This document shows positions 15,814 through 57,631 of a stretch of DNA of 64,000 bases, in pieces (the stretch's first letter is position 1; the number at the start of each line of letters is the position of its first letter). Source of the DNA: Myxococcota bacterium (GTDB lineage: Bacteria > Myxococcota > B64-G9); contig JAKLGA010000002.1 in the NCBI GenBank assembly GCA_022710975.1, positions 496,001 to 560,000 on the forward strand, given 5' to 3'. The notes under the pieces were generated by a model, which worked only from the letters and a program-made list of their open reading frames with translations, was not told where the DNA came from and ran no database searches. Position numbers and translations under genes: made by a program.

Positions 15814-15843
15814 ATGCTACGGCAGCCCCCCGACAACTGTCAA
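15814..15843 (-). promoter_or_regulatory. strong promoter overlapping the cheB stop codon
   Basis: On the minus strand, TTGACA (15838-15843, perfect consensus), 18-bp spacer, TAGCAT (15814-15819). The TGA of cheB (15840-15842) lies inside the -35 hexamer. Confidence 0.7.
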
Positions 15844-17845: not shown

Positions 17846-19865
17846 CCGGCTCCGCCTCCTTGGGCTTGATCAGCTGCTCCATGGCCTCGCGCACCAGCGC
17901 GTCCTGCTCCTCGGCCAGCCGGCCGGCCGCCGTCTGCAGCAGGACCGGATCGCGCAGCGTGCCCACCTTGTGGACGGCCGCCATGCGCACGTCCCAGCGC
18001 GCGTCGCTGAGCGCCGCGAACAGCGCCGTGCGCGCCGCGGGCAGGGGCCAGCGCTCGCACGCGCGCAGCGCCTCCTTGGCCACCTCGGCGTCGCTGTGGC
18101 GGCAGGCCAGCAGCCAGGCCTCGGTGTGGTTGCCCCAGCCCAGCCGGTTGAGCGCGCGCACCGCCTCGAGCGCCACCGCGCCATCCGCGCGCGCGGCGAA
18201 GGGCACGAGCTGCTCGGGGGCGACGCCGCTGCCCTCGGCCGAGAGCCCGGCCAGGGCCTCGTGCACCACCCAGGTGTCGGCGTCCCCGAGCGCCACCCGC
18301 AGGGCCTCGGCCGCCTCCGGGCCCGTGCGCCCCCCCAGCGCCCTGGCCGCCGTGGCGCGCACCTCGGGCTGCTCGTCGGCCAGGGCCCGGCGCAGGCGCT
18401 CGAGCACCTCGGGCCCCCCCACCCTGCCCAGCGCGCCCACCGCCAGCGCGCGGGTGCGCGGATCTCCCTGGGTCGCCAGCAGGGTGATCTGCGGCACGTC
18501 CGCGCGCCGTGCCATGGCGCACAGGACCATGGCGGCGTCCGCGCGGGCCTTCTCCTCGCCGCCCTCGAGCAGCGGCAGGATGGCGGCGCGCACCTCGCCG
18601 TGGAAACGCTCGGCCAGCCGGCCCAGGGCGGTCACGGCGCCCTGGCTGCCGACCTCGCCGCTGCGCCCGAGCAGACCGGCCAGGGCCGCCACGGCCTTCG
18701 GGCTGCCGATCGCACCCAGCGCGCGCTGGGCGGCGGCGGCCACCTCGGAGTCCTCGTGCAAGCACAGCTCCACGAGGCGCGGCAGGCACTCGGCCTGCCC
18801 GAACTGTCCCAGCGCCTCGATGGCCACGCCCAGCGCCGCGCGCCCCAGCGAGTCCAGGTACTCCAGCAGCGACGGGCTCACGCCCGGGCCGAGCGCCAGC
18901 AGCGCCTCCAGGGCGCGATCGCGCAGGCCCGGCTCCTCGGAGGCCTCCAGGGCCACGTGCAGCACCTCGGGCCGGCCGGTCCAGCCGAGCAGGCGCAGGG
19001 CCGCCGCGCGCACCTGGGGCTCCTCGGCGCCCACCATCTCCCCGAGGCGCTCGAAGATCTGGCCGTCGGAGCGCGCGGCCACCAGCCGCTGCAGCCTCGC
19101 GCGGCCCTCGGCGCCCGCGCGTTGCCAGCGGTCGTCGAGCGCCAGCGCGGCCGAGCCGCGCTCCACCCGCCCGCGCGCCACCAGGCCGTCGAGCAGCATG
19201 GCCTCCGCCTCGGGGGCCGGGCAGCGCCCCAGCAGCCGGCCGAGCTGCGCCCTGAGCGGACGCACGCCCGCGAGCCCGCGCAGGGCCTCCCAGGGCACCT
19301 CGGCGCCCAACCGGTCGAGCGCGTCCAGGGCCGCGATCTGCAGCTGCAGCTCGCCAGAGCCCAGCGCGCCGACCAGGTGCTCCAGGGCGCGCGCGTCCCC
19401 CAGGCGGCCGAGGGCCTCGGCCGCGGCGGCGCGCACGTTGCCGTCACCGTCGGCCAGGCGGGCCACCAGGGGCTCCAGCGCCCGGGCATCGCCAATCTCG
19501 CCCAGGATGTCGGCGGCGAACTTGCGCACGTCGGCGTCGGCGCCGGCCAGCGACCCCAGCAGGCCGTCCAGGGCGGGCGCGCCCAGGCGCACCAGCACCT
19601 CGGTGGCCGCGTTGCGCAGGCCGGCGTTGTCCTCCGAGGCCAGACAGCCGAGCAGCCCTCCGACCAGCTCCGCGCTGGCCGGGGCGGAGGCGAGCTGATC
19701 GCCGGCCGCCTTGCGCACGCGCCAGCTCGTGTCCCCGAGCGCCCGCAGGAGCGGGGCCAGGGGCGGCGTCTCGAACTCCGCCAGCCGGCGCACGGCCGCG
19801 TGCCGGATCTCCTCGATCGTGCTGTCCAGGGCGGCCAGCACCCTCTCCTGCTCCTGCGGTTTCAT
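17838..19865 (-). CDS. large HEAT-repeat protein within the chemosensory operon
   Basis: 675 residues from ATG 19865, overlapping the receptor stop as ATGA. The sequence is an almost unbroken solenoid of roughly 20 HEAT/PBS-lyase-like repeats of 30-32 residues, with recurring units such as ALGRLGDARALEHL, VRAAAAEALGRLG and VRKFAADILGEIGDA. No signal peptide, membrane span or catalytic motif, so it is probably a cytosolic scaffold. Translation is coupled to the receptor upstream and CheR downstream, implying fixed stoichiometry with the signalling array. HEAT proteins have, to my recollection, been reported in at least one Myxococcus xanthus chemosensory cluster; direct homology is not established here. 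Confidence 0.85.
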   Translation of the reverse strand: MKPQEQERVLAALDSTIEEIRHAAVRRLAEFETPPLAPLLRALGDTSWRVRKAAGDQLASAPASAELVGGLLGCLASEDNAGLRNAATEVLVRLGAPALDGLLGSLAGADADVRKFAADILGEIGDARALEPLVARLADGDGNVRAAAAEALGRLGDARALEHLVGALGSGELQLQIAALDALDRLGAEVPWEALRGLAGVRPLRAQLGRLLGRCPAPEAEAMLLDGLVARGRVERGSAALALDDRWQRAGAEGRARLQRLVAARSDGQIFERLGEMVGAEEPQVRAAALRLLGWTGRPEVLHVALEASEEPGLRDRALEALLALGPGVSPSLLEYLDSLGRAALGVAIEALGQFGQAECLPRLVELCLHEDSEVAAAAQRALGAIGSPKAVAALAGLLGRSGEVGSQGAVTALGRLAERFHGEVRAAILPLLEGGEEKARADAAMVLCAMARRADVPQITLLATQGDPRTRALAVGALGRVGGPEVLERLRRALADEQPEVRATAARALGGRTGPEAAEALRVALGDADTWVVHEALAGLSAEGSGVAPEQLVPFAARADGAVALEAVRALNRLGWGNHTEAWLLACRHSDAEVAKEALRACERWPLPAARTALFAALSDARWDVRMAAVHKVGTLRDPVLLQTAAGRLAEEQDALVREAMEQLIKPKEAEPDA

Positions 19866-22411
19866 GCCTTGGGCTCCCCCTCCCGCTGCAGCCTGCCCAG
19901 CCAGGCGCGCAGCGTCGCCAGGGCCTCCTTCAGGCGAGCGAGGCTCTCCATCGCGTCGAGCACCACGGCGCTCTCCTGGGACTGGGAGTCGCGCAGCTCC
20001 TCGGCCGCCTCGGCCACGTGGCTGACCCCCTGGCCCTGCTCGCTCATGGCCTTGGCGATGAAGCCGACCATCTCGTTCATGCGCTCCATGTTGCCGGCCA
20101 CGCCGGAGACGGCCTGGACCTGCTCGCTGGCGCTGCGGCCGATGAAGCGGGCGTCCTCGCGCATCTGCTCGGAGGTCCGATCCACGCGGGCGGTGGCCAG
20201 GGTCTGCTCCTCCATGGCCCGGCGGATGTCGCGCACCATGCTGGAGATCTCCCCCATGGACTGGGTGATGCGATGGGCCAGCTGGGTGTGCTCGCTGGTG
20301 TTGCGCGCCACCTCGCCGGTCCGCGCGCTCACCTGGGCCACGGCGGACTGGATCTGCGCCAGGGCCAGCCCGGCGTTCTGGGCCACCTGGGCGCCACGCC
20401 GCACCGTGCTGGTGCCGCGCTCGATGGCCTCCATGGCCATGCGCGAGTCGGCCTGGACGGTCTTGATGAGCGCGGCGATCTCCTTGGTCGAGGTGGCCGT
20501 CCGATCGGCGAGATCCTTGATCTCGTCGGCCACCACCCCGAAGGCACGGCCGTGCTCGCCGGCCGCGGCGGCGATGATGGCGGCGTTCAGCGCCAGCAGG
20601 TTGGTCTTCTCGGCCACGTCGCCGATCACCACCAGGATCTTGCCCACCTCGTCCATGCGCGTGCCCAGGCGGTGGATGACCTGGCGGGCCTCCTCGGTCA
20701 CCTTCTGGATCTCCTCGATGCCCACGATGGTCTCGCGCACCGACTGCACGCCCCGGCCGGCGGTGTCCGCCACGCCGTGGGTCAGCTCACGCGTCTCGCG
20801 CGTGGTCCCCTCGACCTGGCGGATGGCCGCGTCCATCAGCCCGATGGCGCCGACGGCGTCGGTGGCGCGGCGGGCGAGGTCCTCCACGTGCCCGGCCACC
20901 TCCTGGACGGAGCGCGCGATCTCGCGCATGGCCGAGGCGGTGTCGTCCATCATGCCCTGGAAGCTGGAGGCCGAGCCGGACACCTCGCGCACGCTCTGAT
21001 CGATCTCCATCAGCGCCGATGAGCAGTCCGAGGCCGAGCCGCGCAGGGCCTCCACCTGTTCGGTGATGCCCTGGATGGCGGAGCGCATCTCGATCACCGA
21101 GCTGGCCGTCTTCTCCGCGCTGGCCTGGCGCCCCTCGCCGCCCTGCCGCAGCCGGTCGAGGGGAGCCTGGCAGGCGACCATGCGCGCCTCGAGCTGCCCC
21201 AGCGCCTGGTGGCCGTCGGCGGCCAGGGTGCGCAGGTGCCCGCTCAGGCCGGCCACCGCCCGCTGCAGCTCGGCCACCTCGCCCTGCCCGCCCGCCACCA
21301 GCCCGGCATCCAGGTTGCCCTCCGAGGCCCGGCGCACCCGCTGGGTCAGATCGGTGAGCGGGCGCAGGCCCGAGGCGGTCACCGACCACATGAGCAGCAG
21401 GCCGAGCGCGGCCATCAGGCCGACGCCAAGCAGGATGGGCGGCAGCAGGCCGAGCGGGCCGCGGTTGACCTCCTCCACGTCTCCCACCCACACCAGCAGC
21501 CGCTGCTCGGTCAGCGGCCGGGCCAGGAACAGGAACGGCGCCTGCAGCTCCAGCCAGCTCCGCGCCTTCAGCGCGACGATGCGCTGCAGCCAGGTCTTGT
21601 CGGCGCGCACCTGGCCCGCCAGCACCTGGCCGCGGGCGCCGAGCACCAGCAGCTGGGTCCGGAGCTGCTGGCTGGAGAGGAGCTGCTCGAGGGCCGCGCC
21701 CGGCTCCAGATCGGGGCTCTTGCGCAGCAGGCCCTCGAGCTCCCGCTGCGCGCGCTCGACCGCGCCGTACCTGGCCGCCAGGAGCTCGTCCGCGCGCTGC
21801 AGCCGGAGGCGGCTGAGGACGATGGCGCCGAGCCCGCCCAGGCCGATCAGCGTCACCGCCAGCGCCGCGGCCGTCAGGCGCCGCGACAGGTGGCCGAAGG
21901 GCGCGCGCCAGCCCTCCCCGGGCGGCAGCAGGGCCTCCAGGCGGACGCGCAGCCCGGCCACCAGGCGGGTGTTGGCGCTGTAGCGCAGCAGCATGTCGGC
22001 CAGGGCGCCGGCCAGGCCCAGGTAGGCCAGCAGGTAGATCTGCCAGCCGTCCAGGCCAAACAACAGCGCCAGTAGCGCCACGGCGATCAGCGTCCCCAGG
22101 GTCCACAGCAGCAGCGAGGTGGCGCCGTCGCGGAAGGCGAACACGTCGAGCCCCCCCAGGGCCCGGCGCACCGAGGTCGGCTTGGCCTCCTCTCCGGCCG
22201 CGCGGCCGAGCAGCTTCGCGGCCGGCTCGAGCATCCAGCGCACCAGCCGGGTCTGCAGGAAGAACATGGGCGCGGCCAGGACGACGACGATCAGCGCGGC
22301 CCACAGGAAGATCCTCTCCAGGGCGCCGGACAGCAGGGCCACCAGGATGATGGTCGCGAGCGCCGACGAGAGCGCCAGCAGGTGGGCCCGCCTGTACTCC
22401 ATGACTTGCAT
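19862..22411 (-). CDS. methyl-accepting chemotaxis protein with multi-span N-terminus
   Basis: 849 residues from ATG 22411 (GTGGAG upstream; extensions into cheW rejected). The first 210 residues hold about five hydrophobic spans, not the usual one. A roughly 110-residue, probably periplasmic segment follows, then a further span (GLLPPILLGVGLMAALGLLL) and a HAMP-like stretch. The cytoplasmic signalling domain is long. Its hairpin tip near residue 610 reads EKTNLLALNAAI then IAAAAGEHGRAFGVVADEI: the usual Glu and Arg of IEAARAGE are replaced by Ile and Ala. The ligand is unknown. It is the only receptor in the operon. The C-terminus (EGEPKA) lacks a CheR-docking pentapeptide. Confidence 0.92.
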   Translation of the reverse strand: MQVMEYRRAHLLALSSALATIILVALLSGALERIFLWAALIVVVLAAPMFFLQTRLVRWMLEPAAKLLGRAAGEEAKPTSVRRALGGLDVFAFRDGATSLLLWTLGTLIAVALLALLFGLDGWQIYLLAYLGLAGALADMLLRYSANTRLVAGLRVRLEALLPPGEGWRAPFGHLSRRLTAAALAVTLIGLGGLGAIVLSRLRLQRADELLAARYGAVERAQRELEGLLRKSPDLEPGAALEQLLSSQQLRTQLLVLGARGQVLAGQVRADKTWLQRIVALKARSWLELQAPFLFLARPLTEQRLLVWVGDVEEVNRGPLGLLPPILLGVGLMAALGLLLMWSVTASGLRPLTDLTQRVRRASEGNLDAGLVAGGQGEVAELQRAVAGLSGHLRTLAADGHQALGQLEARMVACQAPLDRLRQGGEGRQASAEKTASSVIEMRSAIQGITEQVEALRGSASDCSSALMEIDQSVREVSGSASSFQGMMDDTASAMREIARSVQEVAGHVEDLARRATDAVGAIGLMDAAIRQVEGTTRETRELTHGVADTAGRGVQSVRETIVGIEEIQKVTEEARQVIHRLGTRMDEVGKILVVIGDVAEKTNLLALNAAIIAAAAGEHGRAFGVVADEIKDLADRTATSTKEIAALIKTVQADSRMAMEAIERGTSTVRRGAQVAQNAGLALAQIQSAVAQVSARTGEVARNTSEHTQLAHRITQSMGEISSMVRDIRRAMEEQTLATARVDRTSEQMREDARFIGRSASEQVQAVSGVAGNMERMNEMVGFIAKAMSEQGQGVSHVAEAAEELRDSQSQESAVVLDAMESLARLKEALATLRAWLGRLQREGEPKA

Positions 22412-22427
22412 CCGGTTTTTCTCCACG

Positions 22428-22946
22428 TCAGGCCTCGTCGCCGCGCCGGTCGTCGGGACCCGCCGGCGGGCTGTTGTCTCCCTCATCCCGGGAGAAGAAG
22501 GCCGGGCTCAGCACCCGCTTGAGGTTGAGCAGCAGCAGCAGCCGGTCGTGGTGCTGGCAGACCCCCAGGACGAGCCCGGGCTCCTGCCCCGCCCGCAGCC
22601 GCGGGGAGGGCCGGATCTGGCTGGACGGCAGGCGCACCACCTCCAGCACCTCGTCCACGCGGAAGCCCACCAGCTGGTTCTGCACCACGCAGATGACCAG
22701 CTTGGTGCGCTGGTGGTCCGCCAGGGCCGGCAGGCCCAGCCGGCTGCGCAGATCGACCACGGGGATGATCGCCCCGCGCAGGTTGAGCACGCCCTCCAGC
22801 AGGCCGGTGGCGTCCGGCACGGGCGTCAGCTTGGGCGGCCGGATGATCTCCCGGATGCGCATGATGTCGATGGCGTAGTCCTCGCTGCCCAGCCGGAAGG
22901 AGGCCAGCTGCACCAGGCTCGTCGGGTTGCCCGCCGGATCCGCCAT
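22428..22946 (-). CDS. cheW: CheW-like coupling protein (second copy)
   Basis: 172 residues from ATG 22946 with GAGGGG 8 bp upstream; a GTG at 22955 overlapping the previous stop (GTGA) is the alternative start. A single CheW domain: FRLGSEDYAIDIMRIREII, then LNLRGAIIPVVDLRSRLGL and LVGFRVDEVLEVV. The C-terminal 20 residues are charged and disordered-looking. Couples the receptor to CheA. It sits between the other CheW-like gene and the receptor, 16 bp before the receptor start. Having two different CheW proteins in one operon suggests distinct array positions, for example a ring or cap component; that is inference. Confidence 0.92.
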   Translation of the reverse strand: MADPAGNPTSLVQLASFRLGSEDYAIDIMRIREIIRPPKLTPVPDATGLLEGVLNLRGAIIPVVDLRSRLGLPALADHQRTKLVICVVQNQLVGFRVDEVLEVVRLPSSQIRPSPRLRAGQEPGLVLGVCQHHDRLLLLLNLKRVLSPAFFSRDEGDNSPPAGPDDRRGDEA

Positions 22947-22951
22947 GCCGC

Positions 22952-23581
22952 TCACCCCTCGGGCGACAGGACCGCGTGGTCCTGCCGCCGGCGTACGAAA
23001 CGATCGGCCGCCAACGCGGCGTGCAGGTCGAGCAGGGCCACGATCTCGTCGTCCTTCCGGCCCACGCCCATGACCGGCTCGACCTCGGGCCGCGCCCCGA
23101 ACGGGTGCGCCTCGATGTCGGCCTCGCCCAGCCGCAGGACGTGGTGCACCTCGTCCACCAGCAGGCCCACCAGCTCGCCGCCGCGCATGTAGACCAGCAC
23201 GCGCGAGCGCCGCGTCTGCGGGCTGGCCGGCTGCCGGAGCAGCATGCGCAGGTCCACCACCGGCACGATCGTGCCGCGCAGCGACAGCACGCCCAGGACA
23301 AAGGGCTCGGTGCGGGGCACCCGGGTGATCAGCGGCACCTTGATGATCTCGCGGATCTGGGCGATGGGCAGCGCGAAACGTTCCTCCGCCAGGCGGAAGC
23401 TCAGGTACTCCAGCACCCCGGCGCCGGTGTCGCCGCGCGCCTCGCCGAGCTCGCCCAGGCCCAGATCGCCGGCGTCCAGCTCCTCCGGATCGGCGAAGAA
23501 GTCGCGCAGGGCCGTCTCCAGGGCGGCCTGGGCCCTGGCACCGCCCGGCCGGCGGCGGGTGCGCTCGTCCGCGGGGCTCAC
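22952..23581 (-). CDS. cheW: CheW-like coupling protein with N-terminal extension (first copy)
   Basis: 209 residues from GTG 23581, overlapping the cheA stop as GTGA. The first 55 residues are an acidic, Ala/Gly/Arg-rich extension (RDFFADPEELDAGDLG) absent from ordinary CheW. The CheW domain follows: YLSFRLAEERFALPIAQIREII, LSLRGTIVPVVDLRMLL and LVGLLVDEVHHVL. The extension could be a partner-binding or regulatory tail. It is directly downstream of cheA and upstream of the shorter CheW gene, and probably links CheA into the array. Confidence 0.92.
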   Translation of the reverse strand: MSPADERTRRRPGGARAQAALETALRDFFADPEELDAGDLGLGELGEARGDTGAGVLEYLSFRLAEERFALPIAQIREIIKVPLITRVPRTEPFVLGVLSLRGTIVPVVDLRMLLRQPASPQTRRSRVLVYMRGGELVGLLVDEVHHVLRLGEADIEAHPFGARPEVEPVMGVGRKDDEIVALLDLHAALAADRFVRRRQDHAVLSPEG

Positions 23582-25740
23582 GCTTGCCTCCCCATGTCGC
23601 CGAGCCGGGCTTCCTGGATGAGGGAGCCCACGTCCAGCACGAGGATGGTCTGCTGGCCCGCCAGGTTGGTGGCCCCGGCGATGCCCGGCACCTGGGCCAG
23701 CGAGGGGCCCAGGGCCTTGATGACGATGTCCTGCTGCCCGATCAGCCCGTCCACCACGATGCCCAGCCTGTTCTCGGCCAGGCCCACCACCACCACCTTG
23801 GTCTGGCCGTCCTCGCTGGGGGGCGCCGCCGGCAGCTCGAACAGCTCCTGCAGCCTCAGCAGCGGCAGCGTCGTGCCGCGCAGCTCCAGCACCTCGCGGC
23901 GGTCGAGGGTGCGCACGCGCTGCCCTGCCACCTCCAGGATCTCGATGACCGAGCTGAGCGGGATGGCGTAGATCTCCTCGCTGGTGCGCACCAGCAGGGC
24001 GCGGATGATGGCCAGCGTGATGGGCAGGGTGAGCAGCAGGCGGGTGCCCTGGCCCGGGACCGAGTGCATGTCGATCATCCCGCGCAGGTTGGCGATGTTG
24101 GTCTTGACGACGTCGAGGCCCACGCCGCGGCCCGACAGCTCGCTGACCTGGTCGGAGGTGGAGAAGCCCGGCAGGAACAGCAGGTTGAGCAGCTCCCGCT
24201 CGCTGAGCTCCGCGGCCCGCTCCCCGTCCACCAGGCCCCGCTCCATGGCCTTGGCCCGCACCCGGTCCAGATCCACGCCCCGCCCGTCGTCGGCCACCTC
24301 GATCACCACGTGGTTGCCCTTCTGGTAGGCGTCGATGCGGATCACCCCGGTCTCGCTCTTGCCCGCTGCGCGGCGCTCGGCCGGCGACTCCAGGCCGTGG
24401 TCGAGGGCGTTGCGCAGGATGTGCATCAGCGGGTCGGCCAGATCCTCGACGATCAGCTTGTCCAGCTCGGTGTCCGCGCCGCTCAACCGCAGCTCGACCT
24501 CCTTGCCGGCGGTGCGGGAGAGCTTGCGCACCATGCGCGAGAGCTTCTCGAAGTTCTGCCCCAGCGGCACCATGCGCACCTCCATGATGCCCGCCTGCAG
24601 CTCGTCCAGCCGGCGGCTGAAGGTGCGCGCCGCCTTGAACAGATCCACCGCCAGCCCGCTGAAGCCCTGCTCGGCCTTGAGCTGCTCGGAGATGGCCTGC
24701 ATGGCCGTGCGCACCAGGACCATCTCGCCCACGATGTTCATCAGGGAGTCGAGCTTCTTGATGTCCACGCGCACGGTCTGGCTGACGCTGCGCAGGCTCA
24801 CCGCGGCCAGGTCGGCCGGCGCCGGGGCGCGCTGCTCCGCGCCCTCGCCCTCGCCCTCGGCCTCGGCCTCCGCCCCGCCCGCCGCCGGCGGCGCGGCCGG
24901 GCGCGCGCGGCCCGGCGCGGGGGCCGGGGTGGCTGGAGGCGCGGGCAGATCGCGCAGCGTCGGCCGGCCCTGGGCGTCCCGGCGCGGGATGCGCTCCACG
25001 CGCGCCTCGAACGGCCGCACCAGGGCCTCGAGCTCCGCGGGCTCCATGCGCGCGCCCACCAGCAGGTCGAAGTCGATGGCCTGATCGTCGGCCGGGGCGG
25101 AGCTGGGCAGGGTGGAGATGAGCTCGCCGGCCGTCTTCAGCACGCTGGTCAGCTTGGCCAGGTGCTCGTCGAAGGACATCAGATCGAACGAGGCGCGCAC
25201 CCTGAAGAGATCCATGCCCCGCCGGATGTTGTCGACCAGCCGGTACTCCTCGTACTCGGTCAGCACGCCCAGCATGGCCGGCTCGAGCTCGACCAGCTCG
25301 AGCGGGTTGTCCTCCGCCCTGGCGCGCGCGCTCTCCAGGAGCTTCTCGAGCTGCTTCTTCAGCCCGGTCACCGTCCGCTTGGCCACCTTGGCGCCGCCGC
25401 TGGCCTCGACGATGAGCTGGTTGAAGAGCTCCACCGACTCGAACAGCAGGTCCAGCACCTCGGGCTCGATCGCCACCCTGCCCATGCGCAGGCCGTCCAG
25501 CAGGCTCTCGAGCGCGTGGGCGAAGTCGGACATGCCGCGCGCGCCGAACATGCCCGCCAGGCCCTTGAGCGAGTGGGCCGAGCGGAAGATGTTGTTGATC
25601 AGCTCGGGCTCGTGCTGGCCGCGCTTGCGGTTGTCGTCCAGCTTGAGCACGTCGCGGTTGAGGTGCTCGATGATCTCCTGGGCCTCGGAGAGGAAGTCCC
25701 CGAGCGCCTTCCCGCCGCTGGCGTCGCCGGGCTCGCTCAT
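23578..25740 (-). CDS. cheA: CheA sensor histidine kinase
   Basis: 720 residues from ATG 25740, overlapping the cheY stop as ATGA. Domains in order: Hpt/P1 with phosphorylatable His56 (FRSAHSLKG); a linker of about 150 residues with a second helical region; a Pro/Ala/Glu-rich disordered stretch (about 270-310); dimerisation P3 (VRVDIKKLDSLMNIVGEMVL); P4 HATPase with NALDHGLESPAERR, VADDGRGVD and GRGVGLDVVKTN; and a CheW-like P5 to the C-terminus. A clear CheY-binding P2 ferredoxin-like domain is not evident, which is unusual for flagellar CheA but common in alternative systems. No receiver is fused. It should phosphorylate the operon's CheY-like protein and CheB. Confidence 0.95.
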   Translation of the reverse strand: MSEPGDASGGKALGDFLSEAQEIIEHLNRDVLKLDDNRKRGQHEPELINNIFRSAHSLKGLAGMFGARGMSDFAHALESLLDGLRMGRVAIEPEVLDLLFESVELFNQLIVEASGGAKVAKRTVTGLKKQLEKLLESARARAEDNPLELVELEPAMLGVLTEYEEYRLVDNIRRGMDLFRVRASFDLMSFDEHLAKLTSVLKTAGELISTLPSSAPADDQAIDFDLLVGARMEPAELEALVRPFEARVERIPRRDAQGRPTLRDLPAPPATPAPAPGRARPAAPPAAGGAEAEAEGEGEGAEQRAPAPADLAAVSLRSVSQTVRVDIKKLDSLMNIVGEMVLVRTAMQAISEQLKAEQGFSGLAVDLFKAARTFSRRLDELQAGIMEVRMVPLGQNFEKLSRMVRKLSRTAGKEVELRLSGADTELDKLIVEDLADPLMHILRNALDHGLESPAERRAAGKSETGVIRIDAYQKGNHVVIEVADDGRGVDLDRVRAKAMERGLVDGERAAELSERELLNLLFLPGFSTSDQVSELSGRGVGLDVVKTNIANLRGMIDMHSVPGQGTRLLLTLPITLAIIRALLVRTSEEIYAIPLSSVIEILEVAGQRVRTLDRREVLELRGTTLPLLRLQELFELPAAPPSEDGQTKVVVVGLAENRLGIVVDGLIGQQDIVIKALGPSLAQVPGIAGATNLAGQQTILVLDVGSLIQEARLGDMGRQA

Positions 25741-26114
25741 GGTCCGCCCTTGAGGTACCGCGTCACCAGCTCCTGCAGCTGCGCAGGATCGAAGGGCTTG
25801 ACCAGGTAGTTGTTGGCGCCCAGGGCCAGCCCCCGCTCGCGGTCGCGCTGGCTGCCCTCGGTGGAGATGACGATCAGCGGGATCTTCGCGTAGCGGTCGT
25901 TCTCGCGGATGAAGCGGATCAGCTCCAGCCCGTTGATGTCCGGCATGTTGATGTCGGTGATGACCAGGTGGAAGGCCCGCCGCGGGAGCTCCTTGAGGGC
26001 CTCGAAGCCCGAGGCGGCCTGGACAGCGCGCACCCCGTCCAGCTCCTCGATCGTCGAGGAGATGAAGGCGCGCATGGAGGCGCTGTCCTCGACCACCAGC
26101 ACGTCGTAGTCCAC
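25737..26114 (-). CDS. cheY: CheY-like single-domain response regulator
   Basis: 125 residues from GTG 26114 with AGGAGG 6 bp upstream; longer in-frame extensions lack support. Complete receiver: acidic pocket Glu9-Asp10 (VVEDSASMR), phosphoacceptor Asp54 (ITDINMPDINGLEL), Ser/Thr pair in VISTEGS (84-85) and Lys106 (NYLVKPF). There is no output domain, so it acts by protein binding. It is the first gene of the operon, directly after the promoter region, and its stop overlaps cheA. No flagellar genes are nearby, so the output may be gliding or type IV pilus motility, or a non-motility function. Confidence 0.95.
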   Translation of the reverse strand: MDYDVLVVEDSASMRAFISSTIEELDGVRAVQAASGFEALKELPRRAFHLVITDINMPDINGLELIRFIRENDRYAKIPLIVISTEGSQRDRERGLALGANNYLVKPFDPAQLQELVTRYLKGGP

Positions 26115-26153
26115 GAGAACCTCCTGGCCGGGATCGAGCCGGAATTTCGGATA

Positions 26154-26182
26154 ATCTTTCCAGCCCTTGTCCGTAGAGTCAA
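26154..26182 (-). promoter_or_regulatory. candidate promoter of the chemosensory operon
   Basis: On the minus strand, TTGACT (26177-26182), 17-bp spacer, AAAGAT (26154-26159). The -35 is good and the -10 poor. The AT-rich GATTATC 3-9 bp further downstream is an alternative melting region. Confidence 0.35.
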
Positions 26183-26192
26183 GCGCCCCGGG

Positions 26193-26221
26193 TGGCCATC
26201 CGGGCCCGGTTCGGTTAGAGT
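26193..26221 (+). promoter_or_regulatory. promoter of thiouridylase-like gene
   Basis: TGGCCA (26193-26198), 17-bp spacer, TAGAGT (26216-26221). The leader is about 17 nt and contains GGTGGAGGTGA just before the start codon. It lies back to back with the che promoter region. Confidence 0.5.
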
Positions 26222-26244
26222 CCCCGGGGCGGGTGGAGGTGAGC

Positions 26245-27285
26245 GTGGGCGAGCGGAACCCGGGTCCTGGGCAGGCCGGCCTGGCGGTGGGCATCGCGTC
26301 CGGCGGGCTGGACAGCCTGCTGGCGGTCAAGGTGGTGCAGCGCCTGGGGTTCGAGGTGGTGGCGCTGCACTTCGTGATCGGCTTCGAGTCCGCGCACCTG
26401 CGCGGCTTCATCGAGCGGCCGGACGAGCCGGCGCGGGCCTCGCCCGCCCTCCTGGCCACCGGGGCCCGGGTTGAGGTGCACGACGTGCGCGCCGGGTACC
26501 TGCCGCTGCTGGCCGACCCACCCTGCGGCTTCGGCTCCCAGTGCAACCCGTGCATCGACTGCCACGCGTTCATGCTGGCGCAGGCCGGCCAGCGCATGCG
26601 CGCCCTGGGCGCGGCCTTCGTCTTCTCCGGCGAGGTGCTGGGCCAGCGGCCCATGAGCCAGAACTCCCAGTCCCTGGTCCGGGTCGCGGAGCGCAGCGGG
26701 CTCGGTGACCGCCTGGTGCGGCCGCTCTCCGGCGCGCTCCTGCCTCCCACGGCGCCCGAGCGCGAGGGCGTGCTGCGGCGCGCGGACCTGCTCGACCTGT
26801 CCGGCCGCGGCCGGCAACGCCAGCAGGCCCTGGCCATGGAGCTCGGGGTGCGCGACTACCCCTCCCCGGCCGGCGGCTGCCTGCTGACCGATCCGCAGTA
26901 CTGCGTGCGGCTCCGGGACCTGTTCGCCCGCCGGCCCGGGCGCCTGCTGCGGGTGGACGATCCGCTGCTGCTGTTCGTGGGCCGGCACCTGGTGCTGCCC
27001 TCGGGGGCCAAGGTGGTGATCGGCCGGCGCGACGAGGAGAACGGGGTGGTGGCCCGCTACGCCCCCCGGGGGCTGGTGTTCGAGGCCGTGGAGCAGAACG
27101 GCCCGACCGCCTTCCTGGAGGGCGCCCCCCCGGACCAAGACGTGCTCGACGTGGCCCGCCTGGTGGCGCGCTACGGCCAGGGGCGCGGCCTGCCGCGGGT
27201 GGCCATCCGGGTGAGCGCCCCGGACGGCTCCACGCGCGTGCTGGAGGTCGAGCCCGGCACCCCCGAGGGCTGCCGGGTGCTCTGA
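26245..27285 (+). CDS. PP-loop thiouridylase-like (TrmU/MnmA-related) protein
   Basis: 346 residues; GTG 26245 is preferred (GGAGG 5 bp upstream), with in-frame GTGs at 26233 and 26239 as alternatives. The N-terminal GIASGGLDSLLAVKVVQRLG is a PP-loop ATP-pyrophosphatase motif. CNPCIDCHAFMLAQA and GEVLGQRPMSQ are typical of TrmU/MnmA-related proteins, where the CxxC Cys and PP-loop support tRNA 2-thiouridylation. The C-terminal half differs from MnmA: it has DYPSPAGGCLLTD and a beta-rich region as in the deltaproteobacterial TrmU-like proteins. Probably activates a substrate by adenylation for sulfur insertion; the true substrate is uncertain. It is divergent from the che operon. Confidence 0.75.
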   Translation: MGERNPGPGQAGLAVGIASGGLDSLLAVKVVQRLGFEVVALHFVIGFESAHLRGFIERPDEPARASPALLATGARVEVHDVRAGYLPLLADPPCGFGSQCNPCIDCHAFMLAQAGQRMRALGAAFVFSGEVLGQRPMSQNSQSLVRVAERSGLGDRLVRPLSGALLPPTAPEREGVLRRADLLDLSGRGRQRQQALAMELGVRDYPSPAGGCLLTDPQYCVRLRDLFARRPGRLLRVDDPLLLFVGRHLVLPSGAKVVIGRRDEENGVVARYAPRGLVFEAVEQNGPTAFLEGAPPDQDVLDVARLVARYGQGRGLPRVAIRVSAPDGSTRVLEVEPGTPEGCRVL

Positions 27286-28498: not shown

Positions 28499-29943
<1,445 letters not shown>

Positions 29944-29999
29944 GCGTCCTCTCGAACCCCCCGCGTCCGCTCCGGATTCCCGCGGGCTCCGCTCCGGCC

Positions 30000-30028
30000 A
30001 CGCTACGAGCCGGACCGCGGGCTGTCAA
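30000..30028 (-). promoter_or_regulatory. promoter of ntrC-like/glycosyltransferase unit
   Basis: On the minus strand, TTGACA (30023-30028, perfect), 17-bp spacer, TAGCGT (30000-30005). The predicted leader is about 50 nt. One of the best promoters in the window. Confidence 0.75.
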
Positions 30029-30040
30029 GCCGGGACGGGG

Positions 30041-30069
30041 TAGGCAGCCGCCCCGCGCCGTGGTACTGT
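30041..30069 (+). promoter_or_regulatory. candidate promoter of MopE-motif lipoprotein
   Basis: TAGGCA (30041-30046), 17-bp spacer, TACTGT (30064-30069), 33 bp before ATG 30103. Moderate match; divergent from the ntrC-like promoter with 12 bp between their -35 boxes. Confidence 0.45.
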
Positions 30070-30102
30070 CGGGTGTCCACAGAACCAGCGCGGAGGACGG
30101 GG

Positions 30103-33100
30103 ATGGCTGCGCTCCGGAAGGTCACCATCGCGTGGGCGGTGCTCGGGGGTCTCCTGGCCGGCTGCGACGACAGCTCGCCGTGCCGGAGCGAGTGCGGGGA
30201 CGGGGTGATCGCCTGCCAGGAGGAGTGCGACGATCGCAACCGCGTGGACGGCGACGGCTGCTCGGCGGACTGCCGGGACGAGGCTTGCCTCGACCAGGAC
30301 GGGGACGGGCACCCGGCCGAGACCTGCGGCGGGGACGACTGCGACGACCAGCAGGCGGGCACTCACCCGGGCGCGCCGGAGTCGCTGAACGACGGGGGCT
30401 GCGAGAACGGGCTGGACGACGACTGCGACGGGTTCACCGACGCCCTGGACCTCGGCTGCTGGCCCTGCTTCTCCGACGCCGAGTGCGACGATCTCGACGT
30501 CTGCAGCGGGGTGGAGACCTGCGCCTCGGGCGCCTGCCTGGCCGGCGAGCCCCTCGCCTGTGACGACGGCCTGTTCTGCAACGGGGCCGAGGGCTGCGAC
30601 CCGGCGCTCGGCTGCCAGCCCGGCGCCCTGCCCTGCCCCGCGCCAGGCCCCTGCGTGCGTTGCCGGGAGGAGCTGGACACCTGCCTCGAGGCGGACGGGA
30701 CGCCCTGCGACGACCACGACGGCTGCACCACCTCCTCGGCCTGCCAGGCCGGGGCCTGCGCGCCCGGGCCCAGGGACCTGGACGCGGACGGCGACGGGTT
30801 CGTGGAGGAGGAGTGCGGCGGGGACGACTGCGACGACCAGGCCGCGGCGGTGAACCCCGGGGCGGCCGAGTGGTTCATCGACGCGAGCTGCCACGACGGC
30901 GTCGACAACGACTGCGACCAGGGCACCGACGCGGAGGACATCGGCTGCTGGGACTGCCTGGACGACGCGGAGTGCGACGACGGGGTCTACTGCAACGGGC
31001 GGGAGCTGTGCGGCCAGCACCTCGGGTGCCTGGAGGGCGTCCCGCCCTGCCCCGGGACCGAGTGCAACCGCTGCCAGGAAGACCCGCGCACCTGCCTCGA
31101 CCCGGAGGGCACGCCCTGCGGCGACGCCACCATCACGGCCTGCGACGGCGCGGACACCTGCGACGGTCAGGGGGCCTGCCTGGCCCGCCTGGCCGCGGAC
31201 GGCCAGCCCTGCGACGACGGGACGGTCTGCAACGGCGCCGAGCGCTGCCTCTCGGGTGCGTGCCAGCCGGGCGAGCCGCTGGCCTGCGACGACGGGCTCT
31301 ACTGCAACGGCCCGGAGAGCTGCGACCCGGCGCTCGGCTGCCAGCCCGGCCTCCCACCCTGCGCCGAGGCGGAGTGCAACCACTGCCAGGAGGATGGGGA
31401 CTCGTGCCTCGATCCGGAGGGCACGGCCTGCGGGGAGCCCGCGGTCGCCCAGTGCGACGGCGCGGACACCTGCGACGGCCTGGGGAGCTGCGATCCACGC
31501 CACCTCGCCGCCGGGACGCCATGCGATGATGGCGAGCCCTGCAGCACGCACGACACCTGCCTGGAGGGGGCCTGCCTGGCCGGACCGGTGGACCTCGACG
31601 CGGACGGCGACGGCTTCGTGGCCGAGAGCTGCGGCGGGGACGACTGCGAGGATGGAGCGGCCTGGGTGAACCCGATCGCCCTCGAGGGCGACTTCCCCGA
31701 GGAGTGCGCGGACGGCGCGGACGACGACTGCGACGGCTTCCTGGACCGGCTGGACCAGGGTTGCTTCGGCTGGCAGCACCGCTGGACGGTTGCGTTCGAC
31801 CGTGAAGTCAGGGCAATGACCGTGGAGGGCGGGAAGGTCTACGCAGGCGGAGCATTCCGATCGGTTTCCCAGCTCACTGGGATGTTCGGGGTGGTCAACC
31901 TATCAGATTCCAGTCTGGAGCCGACCACACCCAAGATCGAGGGGAGAATCCGCTCCATCGCACCAGATGGGAATGGTGGCTGGTACATCGCCACCGACGA
32001 CGAGGCAACCGTGGATGGGGTGCTCTGGGGACCGTGGCTCCATCTCCAAACCGACGGGACCCCCGACGAGAACTGGAGACCAGCACTGGCCGAACAGTAC
32101 TGCCTCGTCCATGCCGGTGGATCGGTCTTCGTCGGCGGCGGCTTCACCAGCATCGGCGGAGACTGGGGTTACCAATACCTCGCTGCGTTCGATCCCGTGA
32201 CCGGTGCCCCACAGCCATGGCAGCCTGATCTCGACGGATACGTGAGCGATCTCTATTCCTTCGGCGACACCCTCATCGCCGTCGGTGGGTTCACCCACGT
32301 GGGAGGAGTGAGCCGCCAGGGGATCGCGGCATTCGACACAACGACCCACGAGCTCCTGCCGCTCTCGATCTCACACTCGGGCAGCATCGATGATCTGACG
32401 GTGCTCGGCGACACCCTCTACCTCGCAGGAGACTTCACCAGAATCCAGGGGCAGTTACGCACCAACGTGGCTGCCGTGGATGCATCGTCAGGTGAACTGC
32501 TCGCCTGGCAGCCCGAGATTGTCGACCGTGAGGTCTGGGCGATCTCGGCGTCGGGCTCCACGGTCTATGTCGGAGGCCCGTTCGAGGAAGTGAACGGCCA
32601 GCCCAAGCCATACATCGCCGCACTCGATGCCAGCACCGGCGAGCTCCTGCCCTGGTCGCCACCGGCGCTGTTCCACGTGTTTACCATCCTGGCCACCGAC
32701 GTCGCCGTGCTTGTAAATGGGACTTTCCAGCAGGCCGATGGGCTCATGCGTACCCACCTCGTCGCGTTGAGACCGGACACAGGCGAGCTCGTCGAGGAGT
32801 TTCCCCAGACCAATGGCGACATCACGGAGATCGCCGTCCAGGGGAACAGGGTCGGGCTGGGGGGACTCATTTCTCGATTCGGCGCAAGTGCCCGGACCAC
32901 CCTGGCTGCTTTCTCGCTTGCCACAGGGGAGCTACTGGAATGGAGCCCGATACCTACGCAACCCGCTGGAGAACCAGCCCCCGCGGTGCTCAACCTGGCA
33001 GCCTATGATGGGAAGGTCTACTCCGGCAGCCAGTCTCTCAGACAAGGGCCCTGCTTCCGCGCACTCGACGGCGCCACCGGGCAGGATCTCTTCACCCACC

Positions 33101-33828
33101 CCGACCTTGCGCTGGGCTGCGAGCTCCAGGGGATGGACCGCAAGGGATCGACTCTCTACCTGGGTGCGGCGATTGGCGGATACCACAAGTATGCACTCGA
33201 CCTCGCCACGGGTAGCTGGCTGCCGTGGTCCCCGGTCACTTTCGGTAACTCAATCGTTAGCATCACGGTGGCAGATGGCCCGGTGTTCATGGTCACGCCC
33301 ATGTTCAATGCAGGGGGCTACTACACGAGCCTGGTTGCCTATGACCTCCAGAGCGGGGACATGCTGGACTGGAGACAGTCTACCGAGTACTTCAACCTGT
33401 TCGCGAAAGCAGTCGGGACCGATGCCGTCGCGATCAAGAGCTTCTACGAGCGATGCGAGTCTGGAACCTATGCACCTCGGAATTGTGGCTTGGTTCGTTA
33501 CAGCGGCACCACCGGTGAAGAACTCTGGCGCAACTATGACTTCTCCCACGGTCGCACGCTGGACCTGATTGCGCCAGACCTCTTGTTGGTAGGAGCCAAT
33601 GTATGGGTGCCGGTTGAAGGTACACCGTACTTCTTCGATTCCTACCGATTGGTCGGTGTCGATGCGACAACCGGCGAGATGGCGGAGTGGTTTGGGTCGC
33701 AGATCAACGTGGCGGACGTCATCGAAGTTGGCGAAGGCTACGTGCTGCTCAGTAGGGCTGAATACTCACAACAGACTGCCACCTACTACCTGGAAGCATA
33801 CGAACTGGTGCCTCCCTACCCCCAGTAG
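30103..33828 (+). CDS. chimeric lipoprotein: Cys-rich/MopE metal-binding repeats plus beta-propeller-like domain
   Basis: 1241 residues from ATG 30103 (CGGAGGA upstream); signal peptide with lipobox LLAGC (Cys about 21). Residues 25-60 form a myxobacterial disulfide repeat (CGDGVIACQEECDDRN). Three MopE-type metal-binding motifs (CGGDDCDD/CEDG followed by DDDCDG) lie near residues 76, 237 and 510, separated by Cys-rich repeats of which some are near-duplicates (CDPALGCQPG twice, CDGADTCDG twice). From about residue 565 the protein changes to repeated beta units of roughly 45-50 residues (VYAGGAF, LYLAGDF, VYVGGPF, AALDASTGELLPW), typical of a beta-propeller. Composition also changes there: about 70% GC before nt 31780, roughly 53-60% after. 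Surface or periplasmic metal binding is inferred. Confidence 0.82.
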   Translation: MAALRKVTIAWAVLGGLLAGCDDSSPCRSECGDGVIACQEECDDRNRVDGDGCSADCRDEACLDQDGDGHPAETCGGDDCDDQQAGTHPGAPESLNDGGCENGLDDDCDGFTDALDLGCWPCFSDAECDDLDVCSGVETCASGACLAGEPLACDDGLFCNGAEGCDPALGCQPGALPCPAPGPCVRCREELDTCLEADGTPCDDHDGCTTSSACQAGACAPGPRDLDADGDGFVEEECGGDDCDDQAAAVNPGAAEWFIDASCHDGVDNDCDQGTDAEDIGCWDCLDDAECDDGVYCNGRELCGQHLGCLEGVPPCPGTECNRCQEDPRTCLDPEGTPCGDATITACDGADTCDGQGACLARLAADGQPCDDGTVCNGAERCLSGACQPGEPLACDDGLYCNGPESCDPALGCQPGLPPCAEAECNHCQEDGDSCLDPEGTACGEPAVAQCDGADTCDGLGSCDPRHLAAGTPCDDGEPCSTHDTCLEGACLAGPVDLDADGDGFVAESCGGDDCEDGAAWVNPIALEGDFPEECADGADDDCDGFLDRLDQGCFGWQHRWTVAFDREVRAMTVEGGKVYAGGAFRSVSQLTGMFGVVNLSDSSLEPTTPKIEGRIRSIAPDGNGGWYIATDDEATVDGVLWGPWLHLQTDGTPDENWRPALAEQYCLVHAGGSVFVGGGFTSIGGDWGYQYLAAFDPVTGAPQPWQPDLDGYVSDLYSFGDTLIAVGGFTHVGGVSRQGIAAFDTTTHELLPLSISHSGSIDDLTVLGDTLYLAGDFTRIQGQLRTNVAAVDASSGELLAWQPEIVDREVWAISASGSTVYVGGPFEEVNGQPKPYIAALDASTGELLPWSPPALFHVFTILATDVAVLVNGTFQQADGLMRTHLVALRPDTGELVEEFPQTNGDITEIAVQGNRVGLGGLISRFGASARTTLAAFSLATGELLEWSPIPTQPAGEPAPAVLNLAAYDGKVYSGSQSLRQGPCFRALDGATGQDLFTHPDLALGCELQGMDRKGSTLYLGAAIGGYHKYALDLATGSWLPWSPVTFGNSIVSITVADGPVFMVTPMFNAGGYYTSLVAYDLQSGDMLDWRQSTEYFNLFAKAVGTDAVAIKSFYERCESGTYAPRNCGLVRYSGTTGEELWRNYDFSHGRTLDLIAPDLLLVGANVWVPVEGTPYFFDSYRLVGVDATTGEMAEWFGSQINVADVIEVGEGYVLLSRAEYSQQTATYYLEAYELVPPYPQ
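30549..31350 (+). repeat. intragenic duplicated modules
   Basis: Segments near 30549-30625 and 31278-31355 encode nearly the same module (LACDDGL, then CNG, then CDPALGCQPG) and share long identical DNA stretches. A second pair near 31097-31170 and 31415-31490 encodes LDPEGT, ACG and CDGADTCDG. This indicates tandem module duplication inside the gene. Confidence 0.6.
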
Positions 33829-33884: not shown

Positions 33885-36800
33885 ATGCCTGACGCGCGCA
33901 CGGCCTCCCGCCTCAGGCGGGAGAGCGACCTGATGGCCTTCCGCGTGCGGGAGATCCTGCTGGTCTCCTCGCGCTTCGACGCCTTCGTGCTCGAGGAGGA
34001 CGGCCACATCACCGAGCAGGTGTTCCAGGAGTACATGGCGCTGTCGCTCTCCAGCGCGCCCCGCTTCACCCACGTCGCCGACCAGGAGCAGGCCCTGGAG
34101 CTGCTGGCCGAGCGGGCCTTCGACCTGGTGCTGGTGGTGGCCCGCGAGGCCAGCCGCGAGGTGGTCGCCTTCAGCCAGGAGGTCAAGCGCCGGGTCCCCG
34201 GGCAGTGGGTGGTGGTGCTGGGCTTCGAGAGCGCCGATCTGTCCTACCTGCAGCGCCAGGTCGGGCCGGGCTGCCTGGACGGCGTGTTCGTGTGGAACGG
34301 CGACGCGCGCATCCTGCTGGCCATCACCAAGTCGATCGAGGACCAGGCCAACGCCGAGCGCGACATCCGCGCGGCCGGGGTGCGCGCCATCCTGGTGGTC
34401 GAGGACTCCATCCGCTACTACTCCTCCTTCCTGTCGGAGCTCTACCCGGAGCTCTTGAAGCAGTCGAAGTCGCTCGTGTCCGAGGGCCTGAACCGCCTGC
34501 AGCGCCCGGCCAAGACCCGCACCCGGCCGAAGATCCTGCACGCCCAGGACTTCGAGGCGGCCCTGGCGCTCTTCGAGCGCTACCAGGACTACGTGATCGG
34601 GGTCATCTGCGACGCCGGCTTCCCCCGCGCCGACGCGCTCGATCCCAAGGCGGGCCTGGAGCTGGTGCGCCGCTTCCGCGCCTGCAGCCCGGACCTGCCG
34701 GTGCTGCTGCAGTCGGCCGAGGGCGATCTCACCCGGGAGGCGAACGAGCTGGGGGTGCAGTTCGTGGCCAAGCACTCCCCGGCGCTGATGCAGACGCTGC
34801 GCAGCTTCCTGGCCGACTACCTGGGCTTCGGCCCGTTCATCTTCCGCCTGCCCGACGGCCGCGAGGTGGCCCGGGCCTCCGACGTGCGCCAGCTCATGGA
34901 GTGCCTCGAGCGCATCCCGGTCGCCTCCCTGGGCTACCACTCCCAGCGCAACCACTTCTCCAACTGGCTCATGGCGCGCAGCGAGTTCGAGCTGGCCGAC
35001 AGCCTGCGGCCGCTCAAGGTGTCCGACTTCCCCTCGCTGGAGTCCATCCGCGCGCACCTGGTGCGCCGCCTGGCGCAGCGCATGGAGCGCGCCCGGCGCG
35101 GCATCGTGGCCGACTTCGCGCCCCGGACCTCCAGCCGCGGGGCCCTGTTCCAGCGGCTGGGCGACGGCTCGCTGGGCGGCAAGGCGCGCGGGGTCGCCTT
35201 CCTGAACCAGCTCCTGGCCGAGGAGGAGGAGCGCCTGCCCGCGGGCCTGGCGGTGCGCATCCCGCAGAGCTTCGCCCTGACCACCGAGCACTACGAGCGC
35301 TTCATCGACGAGAACAGGCTGCAGGATTCCGTGGGCCGCGAGCCGCCGAGCGACGAGCGCATCCTGGAGCGCTTCCTGGCCGCGCGCCTGCCCGAGAAGC
35401 TGACCACGGATCTGGCCGCCCTGGCCGAGCAGCTCCGCGGGCCGCTGGCCGTGCGCTCCTCCTCCATGCTGGAGGACGACGTGATGCACCCCTTCGCCGG
35501 GGTGTACGGCACGGTCATGATCCCCAACGACGCCTCCCTGGCGGCCGAGCGCCTGGCCGATCTCCGCCGGGCGGTCAAGACGGTCTACGCCACCACCTTC
35601 CTGCGCAACGCCCGCGCCTACCTGGCCAACACCGGCCACGGCGTGGAGGAGGAGCGCATGGGGGTGCTCATCCAGCGCGTGGTCGGCCAGGCCTTCGGCC
35701 CGCGGTTCTACCCGCACTTCAGCGGGGTGGCGCACTCGTACAACTTCTACCCGGTCGGCCCGCTGCGGCCCGAGGACGGCGTGGCCCAGGTGGTGCTGGG
35801 CCTGGGCCGCCTGGTGGTCGAGGGGGGCGAGGGCGTGCGTTTCAGCCCCCGGCACCCCGGCGTGGTGCCGCTGCTGGCCGAGCCGCGGCTGGCGCTGCGC
35901 AACTCGCAGCGGGTGTTCTACGCCGTGGACCTCTCGCGCCGCTGGCAGGTGGAGGGCCGCGACATCACCGCCAACCAGCAGGCCTACGATCTGTCGCTGG
36001 CGCACGAGGACGGCCCCTTCCTCCAGGTGGGCGAGGTGGTCAGCGCCTACCGCGACGAGCTGACCGACGACCTCGACGCCGCGGGCACGCGCGTGGTCAC
36101 CTTCCGCCGCCTGCTGCGCGGCGGTGAGGTGCCGCTGGCCGAGAGCCTGGCGGCGCTGCTCGAGCTGGTGTCCGAGGCCATGGGCTCGCCGGTGGAGATG
36201 GAGTTCGCCTGCGACCTGGGCGACCGCGGCCGGGCGCCCTCGCCCGCGGCCGTGCCCGACCCGCCCACCCTGTACCTGCTGCAGGTGCGCCCCATCCTGG
36301 TGCGCGAGGCGCTCAAGGAGCTCAGCCACGAGGAGTTCGATCCCGACACGGTCGTGTGCCGCTCCAGCCTGGCGCTGGGGCACGGCCACCACAGCGACAT
36401 CCACGACCTCGTGTACGTGAAACCGGACGCCTTCACCCCGGAGAACACCCAGGCCATCGCCCAGGAGGTCGGGCAGCTCAACGACCTCCTGCAGCGGGAG
36501 GCCCGGCCCTACGTGCTGATCGGCCCGGGCCGCTGGGGCTCGGCCGACCCATGGCTGGGCATCCCCGTGCAGTGGGCCCAGATCTCAGGCGCCAAGATCA
36601 TCGTGGAGGCCTCCCCCCAGGGCTTCACCGTGGAGCCCTCGCAGGGCTCGCACTTCTTCCACAACCTGACGGCGCTGCACCTGGGCTACTTCACCATCCC
36701 GCCCGGGGCCACCCGCGAGCGGCCGCAGCGCGAGTCGTGGGTGGACTGGGCCTGGCTGCGGGAGCAGCCGGCCACCGTGGAGACCGCCCACCTGCGGCTG

Positions 36801-36920
36801 GTGCGCACCACCACCCCGCTGGTCGCCCACCTGGACGGGCGGCACGGGGTGGGGCTGATCGCCTGGTGCCGCAGGTGCGAGCACCCCATCTGCCGGGGAG
36901 CGAGGCGCAGCGGCGCTTGA
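33885..36920 (+). CDS. tandem receiver-like domains fused to PEP/pyruvate-binding (PPDK N-terminal type) domain
   Basis: 1011 residues from ATG 33885 (GGAGG 6 bp upstream). Residues about 20-155 resemble a degenerate receiver with no Asp where the phosphoacceptor belongs (DLVLVVAREAS). Residues about 165-310 are a fuller receiver: acidic Glu173-Asp174 (VVEDSIR), Asp243 (VICDAGFP) and Lys296 (FVAKHSP). From about 425 to 810 an ATP-grasp PEP/pyruvate-binding domain follows: GDGSLGGKARGVAFLN, PLAVRSSSMLEDD, FAGVYGT and LYLLQVRPI. The phosphohistidine and PEP-barrel domains of PPDK/PEP synthase are absent. The last 200 residues (LIGPGRWGSADPWLG) are less clear. Possibly a phosphorylation-controlled nucleotide or phosphotransfer enzyme; substrate unknown. 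Confidence 0.8.
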   Translation: MPDARTASRLRRESDLMAFRVREILLVSSRFDAFVLEEDGHITEQVFQEYMALSLSSAPRFTHVADQEQALELLAERAFDLVLVVAREASREVVAFSQEVKRRVPGQWVVVLGFESADLSYLQRQVGPGCLDGVFVWNGDARILLAITKSIEDQANAERDIRAAGVRAILVVEDSIRYYSSFLSELYPELLKQSKSLVSEGLNRLQRPAKTRTRPKILHAQDFEAALALFERYQDYVIGVICDAGFPRADALDPKAGLELVRRFRACSPDLPVLLQSAEGDLTREANELGVQFVAKHSPALMQTLRSFLADYLGFGPFIFRLPDGREVARASDVRQLMECLERIPVASLGYHSQRNHFSNWLMARSEFELADSLRPLKVSDFPSLESIRAHLVRRLAQRMERARRGIVADFAPRTSSRGALFQRLGDGSLGGKARGVAFLNQLLAEEEERLPAGLAVRIPQSFALTTEHYERFIDENRLQDSVGREPPSDERILERFLAARLPEKLTTDLAALAEQLRGPLAVRSSSMLEDDVMHPFAGVYGTVMIPNDASLAAERLADLRRAVKTVYATTFLRNARAYLANTGHGVEEERMGVLIQRVVGQAFGPRFYPHFSGVAHSYNFYPVGPLRPEDGVAQVVLGLGRLVVEGGEGVRFSPRHPGVVPLLAEPRLALRNSQRVFYAVDLSRRWQVEGRDITANQQAYDLSLAHEDGPFLQVGEVVSAYRDELTDDLDAAGTRVVTFRRLLRGGEVPLAESLAALLELVSEAMGSPVEMEFACDLGDRGRAPSPAAVPDPPTLYLLQVRPILVREALKELSHEEFDPDTVVCRSSLALGHGHHSDIHDLVYVKPDAFTPENTQAIAQEVGQLNDLLQREARPYVLIGPGRWGSADPWLGIPVQWAQISGAKIIVEASPQGFTVEPSQGSHFFHNLTALHLGYFTIPPGATRERPQRESWVDWAWLREQPATVETAHLRLVRTTTPLVAHLDGRHGVGLIAWCRRCEHPICRGARRSGA

Positions 36921-57629: not shown

Positions 57630-57631
57630 GC

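Follow-up and report, generated by a model that had tools for sequence, protein, structure and literature searches.

The protein encoded at 33885..36920 on the forward strand of the window, that is, the whole 64,000-nucleotide stretch of Myxococcota DNA analysed here, belongs to a family that probably controls or serves the central nitrogen enzyme glutamate dehydrogenase (GDH), since its relatives lie consistently beside GDH genes. The catalytic core of this family, a PPDK-type ATP-grasp domain (PPDK_N) followed by a C-terminal domain of its own, very probably shares a function of some kind with GDH. The architecture itself is known; what seems to be new is its association with GDH and the C-terminal domain. 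GDH is placed where carbon and nitrogen metabolism meet, and a signal-gated partner encoded beside it in many lineages, culturable gut Bacteroidales included, would be a missing layer of GDH control. Such a partner would also give a first function to the response regulators with PPDK output and to PPDK_N without its swivel domain, for which we know of no demonstrated activity. An orphan architecture has become a directly testable question, and the analysis also adds a fold that is predicted with confidence and for which the PDB search gave no match.

Domain order and the two receivers

The ORF has an ATG start and encodes 1011 aa, and sequence comparison indicates that it is a real conserved gene: eight relatives from related genomes align over the full length with 43–57% identity, and 80 more loci, which are the best matches to the query and not a random sample, show 37–50% identity to the window protein, again in full-length alignments. 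Related loci number at least 578, and the architecture is widespread in bacteria and archaea. The earlier note on this DNA had read the protein as two receiver-like domains fused to an ATP-grasp and expected related architectures in other phyla; relatives were indeed found in many phyla of bacteria and in two lineages of archaea, and the domains it named were right, but DUF5752 and the conserved domain at about 819–990 had been overlooked. The features are as follows.

33885..36920, + strand: whole gene, 1011 aa; pseudo-receiver, receiver, DUF5752, PPDK_N ATP-grasp, new C-terminal domain
33942..34373, + strand: receiver 1, aa 20–163, aspartate-less (AF2 strands and helices; PleD and 3hv2 matches; no Asp at the end of beta-3)
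34380..34820, + strand: receiver 2, aa 166–312, complete acceptor site E173 D174 / D243 / S277 / K296 (alignment, AF2, Foldseek)
34611..34613, + strand: codon of Asp243, the predicted phospho-acceptor (invariant in 87/87; end of strand 237–243)
34872..35096, + strand: DUF5752-like helical domain, aa 330–404 (Pfam PF19027, E 1e-5; AF2; alignment)
35169..36320, + strand: PPDK_N ATP-grasp, aa 429–812 (Pfam PF01326, E 6e-38; residue conservation, alignment)
36339..36854, + strand: C-terminal "GPGRWG" domain, aa ~819–990 (AF2; Foldseek against the PDB; alignment)

In the Pfam search, PPDK_N covered profile positions 3–317 of 328, and Response_reg gave a weak, sub-threshold match at 216–296. H352 and W361 of the DUF5752-like domain are invariant, and S359 and R365 are conserved. 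The AlphaFold model of residues 1–425, built from 79 sequences (pLDDT 85, pTM 0.85), contains two successive (beta-alpha)5 units at 23–163 and 168–312 and then a small helical unit, so that the second receiver fold, which the earlier note had placed at 165–310, is present in the prediction. Foldseek against the PDB gave the tandem-receiver protein PleD as top matches with probability 1.00, and the lone receiver 3hv2 was also among the structural matches. In receiver 2, the proposed Asp174, Asp243 and Lys296 hold up well across 87 sequences: D243, S/T277 and K296 are found in 87/87, E173 in 86/87 and D174 in 83/87, with Asn in the other four. The acid pair, the Asp, the Ser/Thr and the Lys are thus all kept, and every residue that phosphorylation normally needs is present.

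Receiver 1 is degenerate, as had been claimed: it has the (beta-alpha)5 fold in the model, its acceptor position holds mostly Thr, Ser or Val, and no Asp was seen there in the aligned family. The detached modules L021 and L022, which consist only of receiver, receiver and DUF5752-like domain (about 440 aa) without the ATP-grasp, carry Asp in receiver 1, and loss of this residue thus accompanies the fused architecture; in their genomes, GDH adjoins a stand-alone core. PleD, with tandem receivers and a GGDEF domain, resembles the window protein in its tandem receivers and is its best structural match in the PDB. The first receiver of PleD is the phosphorylated one, whereas the window protein has a degenerate first receiver, an intact second one and an ATP-grasp output. 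It has been reported that aspartate-less receivers are highly associated with PPDK effectors (PMC4395418); receiver 1 is like them in lacking the acceptor Asp throughout the family, and the window protein is unlike them in pairing such a receiver with the intact receiver 2. Combinations of receiver and PPDK have already been recorded (PMC5847659), and the response regulators with PPDK output of Galperin et al. likewise have one or more receivers fused to a PPDK-type ATP-grasp; the passages on them give the combination only and describe no function, GDH link or C-terminal domain. A Heimdallarchaeota member of the receiver–PPDK type (L091) is in the set of relatives. In the open-access literature, no function and no mention of GDH was found for receiver–PPDK proteins.

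The ATP-grasp core and the C-terminal domain

The ATP-grasp domain keeps K433 (GGK), R524 (VRS), E771-x-E773 and Q800-x-R802, each at least 95% conserved in the family, and these residues we take to be the PPDK catalytic set. Most of them align with the PPDK of the same genome (GGKG, DIEF, LQCR), where the VRS block aligned poorly. In its PPDK_N domain with K, R, (D/E)xE and QxR, the window protein is like PPDK, PEP synthase, rifampin phosphotransferase and the prodigiosin ligase PigC; unlike these enzymes, it has no swivel domain and no PEP/pyruvate barrel, and the new C-terminal domain stands in their place. The absence of phosphohistidine and PEP domains, claimed in the earlier note, is confirmed: Pfam found neither PF00391 (phosphohistidine) nor PF02896 (PEP barrel) in the window protein, and neither Pfam nor the structure placed such domains in residues 810–1011. 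Only about 200 residues remain after the ATP-grasp, and nearly all of them are the new domain. Its conserved block reads GPGRWGSxDPWLGIPVxWxQISGAxIIVE...PSQG[TS]HFFxN, with G882, R883, E908, G921, H923, F924 and N927 invariant, and PPDK_N is accompanied by it in every architecture of the group aligned, the window protein included.

The AlphaFold model of residues 805–1000 (93 sequences) is confident, with pLDDT 90 and pTM 0.88. Foldseek of this model against the PDB gave no match at E <= 0.001; among the matches listed, query TM-scores reach at most 0.31 and no swivel domain appears. Because a confident model has no such PDB match, we regard the domain as a fold not described before rather than the phosphohistidine domain that the protein lacks, although a circularly permuted relation is conceivable. 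A hidden phosphohistidine domain in the C-terminus was rejected on Pfam and structure, although H923 starts a helix.

GDH genes beside the core in relatives

GDH was not the goal of the neighbourhood search, in which all flanking ORFs of 86 relatives were clustered. A GDH family appeared in the flank of 56 of these relatives; the other large clusters consisted mostly of frame-shadow ORFs, either of the gene or of gdh. By tblastn, GDH was found at 55 loci, within 500 bp at 50 of these; L026 escaped this count because its ORF was called too long. Of the 64 loci whose flanks both extend to 1.4 kb or more, about three quarters have GDH and about a quarter have no GDH neighbour. By our own estimate, which takes a genome of about 4,000 genes to hold one to three for GDH, a random gene would have GDH as an immediate neighbour, on either side, with a chance of roughly 1/1000, and kinship lowers the effective number of loci. 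The linkage in relatives is strong. By record title, the linked loci come from many bacterial phyla and two archaeal lineages; the bacterial titles include Myxococcales, Bacteroidetes, Ignavibacteria, Chlorobi, KSB1, Acidobacteria, Planctomycetota, Gemmatimonadales, Desulfatitalea, Neomarinimicrobiota, Delongbacteria and Desulfosporosinus, and the archaeal ones are Thermoplasmatota and Heimdallarchaeota. All orientations of GDH were found, namely upstream on the same strand, downstream, convergent and divergent. So many phyla and such varying gene order and orientation argue against one frozen ancestral operon. Six genomes of the same family have GDH beside the full-length gene with 86–124 bp between matches, and in eight further genomes most GDH genes are near a core. 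The GDH next to L004 is NADP-specific by NCBIfam.

In a Bacteroidetes MAG (L041, 1–10436), the genes form an array of gdh, receiver–core, gdh, receiver–core and gdh. WP_041525632.1 of the culturable species Parabacteroides distasonis (984 aa) has a homologous core with 38% identity over 98% of the core and an adjoining, divergent gdhA; it is annotated as "PEP/pyruvate-binding domain-containing protein", an annotation without function. The same core also occurs beside GDH with other inputs: as a stand-alone core or a GAF-like–core–nucleotidyltransferase protein (the two kinds together at L114, L116, L117, L120, L121) and as a KaiC-like–core protein (L118) divergent next to gdhA. Since varied sensors on one core are all found beside GDH, the linkage belongs to the core and not to the receivers. 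The KaiC-like N-terminal part of L016 and L017 (L118, L119), fused to PPDK_N and GPGRWG, was recognised by eye, without confirmation by Pfam. Genes of 1150 aa directly upstream in Bacteroidales, considered as kinases, in fact encode receiver, receiver, DUF5752 and core behind an extra N-terminal sensor.

Other metabolic genes occur in some of these neighbourhoods. 2-Oxoacid:ferredoxin oxidoreductase is found at L055 and L086, with clusters also at L103 and L105, and in these four Bacteroidales loci the alpha and beta genes are followed by a tandem core pair; at L055, gdhA also lies downstream. The small subunit of glutamate synthase lies near L063, L087 and L071. A comparison of 56 linked with 7 unlinked GDH sequences gave no candidate for a linked-specific modification site, as only F188 and W199 differ.

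Proposed function, alternatives and the window genome

The ATP-site residues are kept, there is no histidine carrier or PEP site, there are several sensors and the GDH neighbour is constant; together these favour a post-translational regulator of GDH. The protein may well be an enzyme that depends on ATP, is gated by a signal and acts on GDH or on the glutamate/2-oxoglutarate node, most likely as such a regulator, and we put this forward tentatively; gating by phosphorylation, GDH as target and the chemistry are what we infer. A histidine kinase encoded elsewhere would phosphorylate Asp243 of receiver 2, with the aspartate-less receiver 1 and DUF5752 serving as putative adaptors; the receivers and DUF5752 would switch the catalytic core, composed of the PPDK-type ATP-grasp and the new C-terminal domain; the core would then spend ATP on GDH, most likely as a covalent modifier of the phosphotransfer type, and GDH activity would be set according to nitrogen or energy signals. 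It is possible, with lower confidence, that this represents a hitherto unrecognised, widespread covalent control of GDH in many bacterial phyla and some archaea, where the ATP-grasp and the new fold would phosphorylate or otherwise modify GDH and interchangeable sensors (receivers, GAF-like, KaiC-like) would decide when.

The earlier note had left three options for an ATP-grasp of this kind, namely a different partner for the phosphate, an ATP-dependent sensor or another substrate; this is still the right set, and genome context now adds GDH as a candidate partner or substrate. The linkage indicates a shared function and not modification as such, and the core could be a metabolic enzyme in series with GDH, carrying out an ATP-driven phosphorylation or ligation of a small molecule (glutamate, 2-oxoglutarate, an ammonia-derived or a pyruvate-like compound), with receivers that merely regulate the step. 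The PPDK_N relatives (PPDK, PEP synthase, rifampin phosphotransferase, prodigiosin ligase), whose NCBIfam matches are sub-threshold, do act on small molecules, and glutamate synthase and 2-oxoacid oxidoreductase are among the neighbours; however, receiver, GAF-like and KaiC-like inputs on one core fit a regulator better, L041 pairs one core with each GDH, and the PEP barrel is missing, so that a metabolic enzyme is rather unlikely.

It is more doubtful that the protein is a non-catalytic ATP sensor, in which ATP/ADP binding and the receiver state would set direct inhibition or activation of GDH with no covalent chemistry. The GDH linkage, the lack of a phosphohistidine acceptor domain and a highly conserved C-terminal domain that could bind GDH would agree with this, but the residues of the PPDK catalytic set are almost invariant, a degree of conservation that seems higher than mere binding requires. 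Equally improbable is a classical transfer through phosphohistidine, like that of PEP synthase, in which the ATP-grasp would phosphorylate a histidine either on a separate swivel protein in trans or in its own C-terminal domain, where His923 would be a diverged acceptor. H923 is present in 87/87 sequences and, like swivel histidines, stands at a helix start, and the genome check for separate phosphohistidine proteins that the earlier note had proposed did find three PF00391 proteins elsewhere; yet by sequence these look like an ordinary PPDK, a PEP-synthase-like protein and PTS enzyme I, no link between them and the window gene was found, and the C-terminal model matches no swivel fold.

In the window genome, one ELFV-type dehydrogenase was detected (C9:162780-163514), and this sole GDH precedes the GAF-like paralogue L002 by about 90 bp. 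No GDH was found near the window gene in its own genome, whereas relatives of the same family carry one at a distance of about 100 bp from the orthologous gene. The window gene is thus an orphan: the assembly, 98.6% complete, lacks its usual partner. If it acts on GDH in this genome, it would do so in trans, and for the regulator proposed above the target may be the single remaining GDH. The paralogue L002 (L114; together with the GDH at G000:C9:162780-166781) has 1057 aa and combines a GAF-like N-terminus, seen by eye with no Pfam GAF, with PPDK_N, GPGRWG and a nucleotidyltransferase (PF01909), and is possibly a GDH-modifying fusion. By Pfam, the nucleotidyltransferase domain of GlnD/GlnE-like regulators is absent from the window protein and present only in this paralogue. 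A HisKA_3 histidine kinase of the same genome (L112 / L115; G000:C1:893961-894329) shares the N-terminal sensor region of L002, adjoins a response-regulator-like ORF and is a possible sensor partner.

The earlier note rightly saw no histidine kinase adjacent to the gene: the nearest one found in the window is CheA (23578–25740), and a motif screen for kinases in the flanks of relatives, crude and weak as it is, found none. Its single-gene unit with its own promoter and operator-like palindrome finds no support, since 56 bp separate the start of the gene from a preceding ORF on the same strand, a promoter scan found no sigma-70-type site, and the "palindrome" is a weak repeat, made of two 7-bp arms that straddle the start codon in DNA rich in GC. 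The gene that ends 56 bp before the start codon (28774–33828, +) is lipoprotein-like, with MopE-type metal-binding motifs and PQQ-type beta-propeller repeats. On the minus strand, chemosensory-type genes occupy 15840–26837, with CheB (15840–17471), the CheA mentioned above and a response regulator (25737–26837), and a HEAT-repeat protein (17838–19865, −) lies among them; two proton-antiporter-type subunits, NuoL/NuoM-like, are encoded at 54703–59521 (−).
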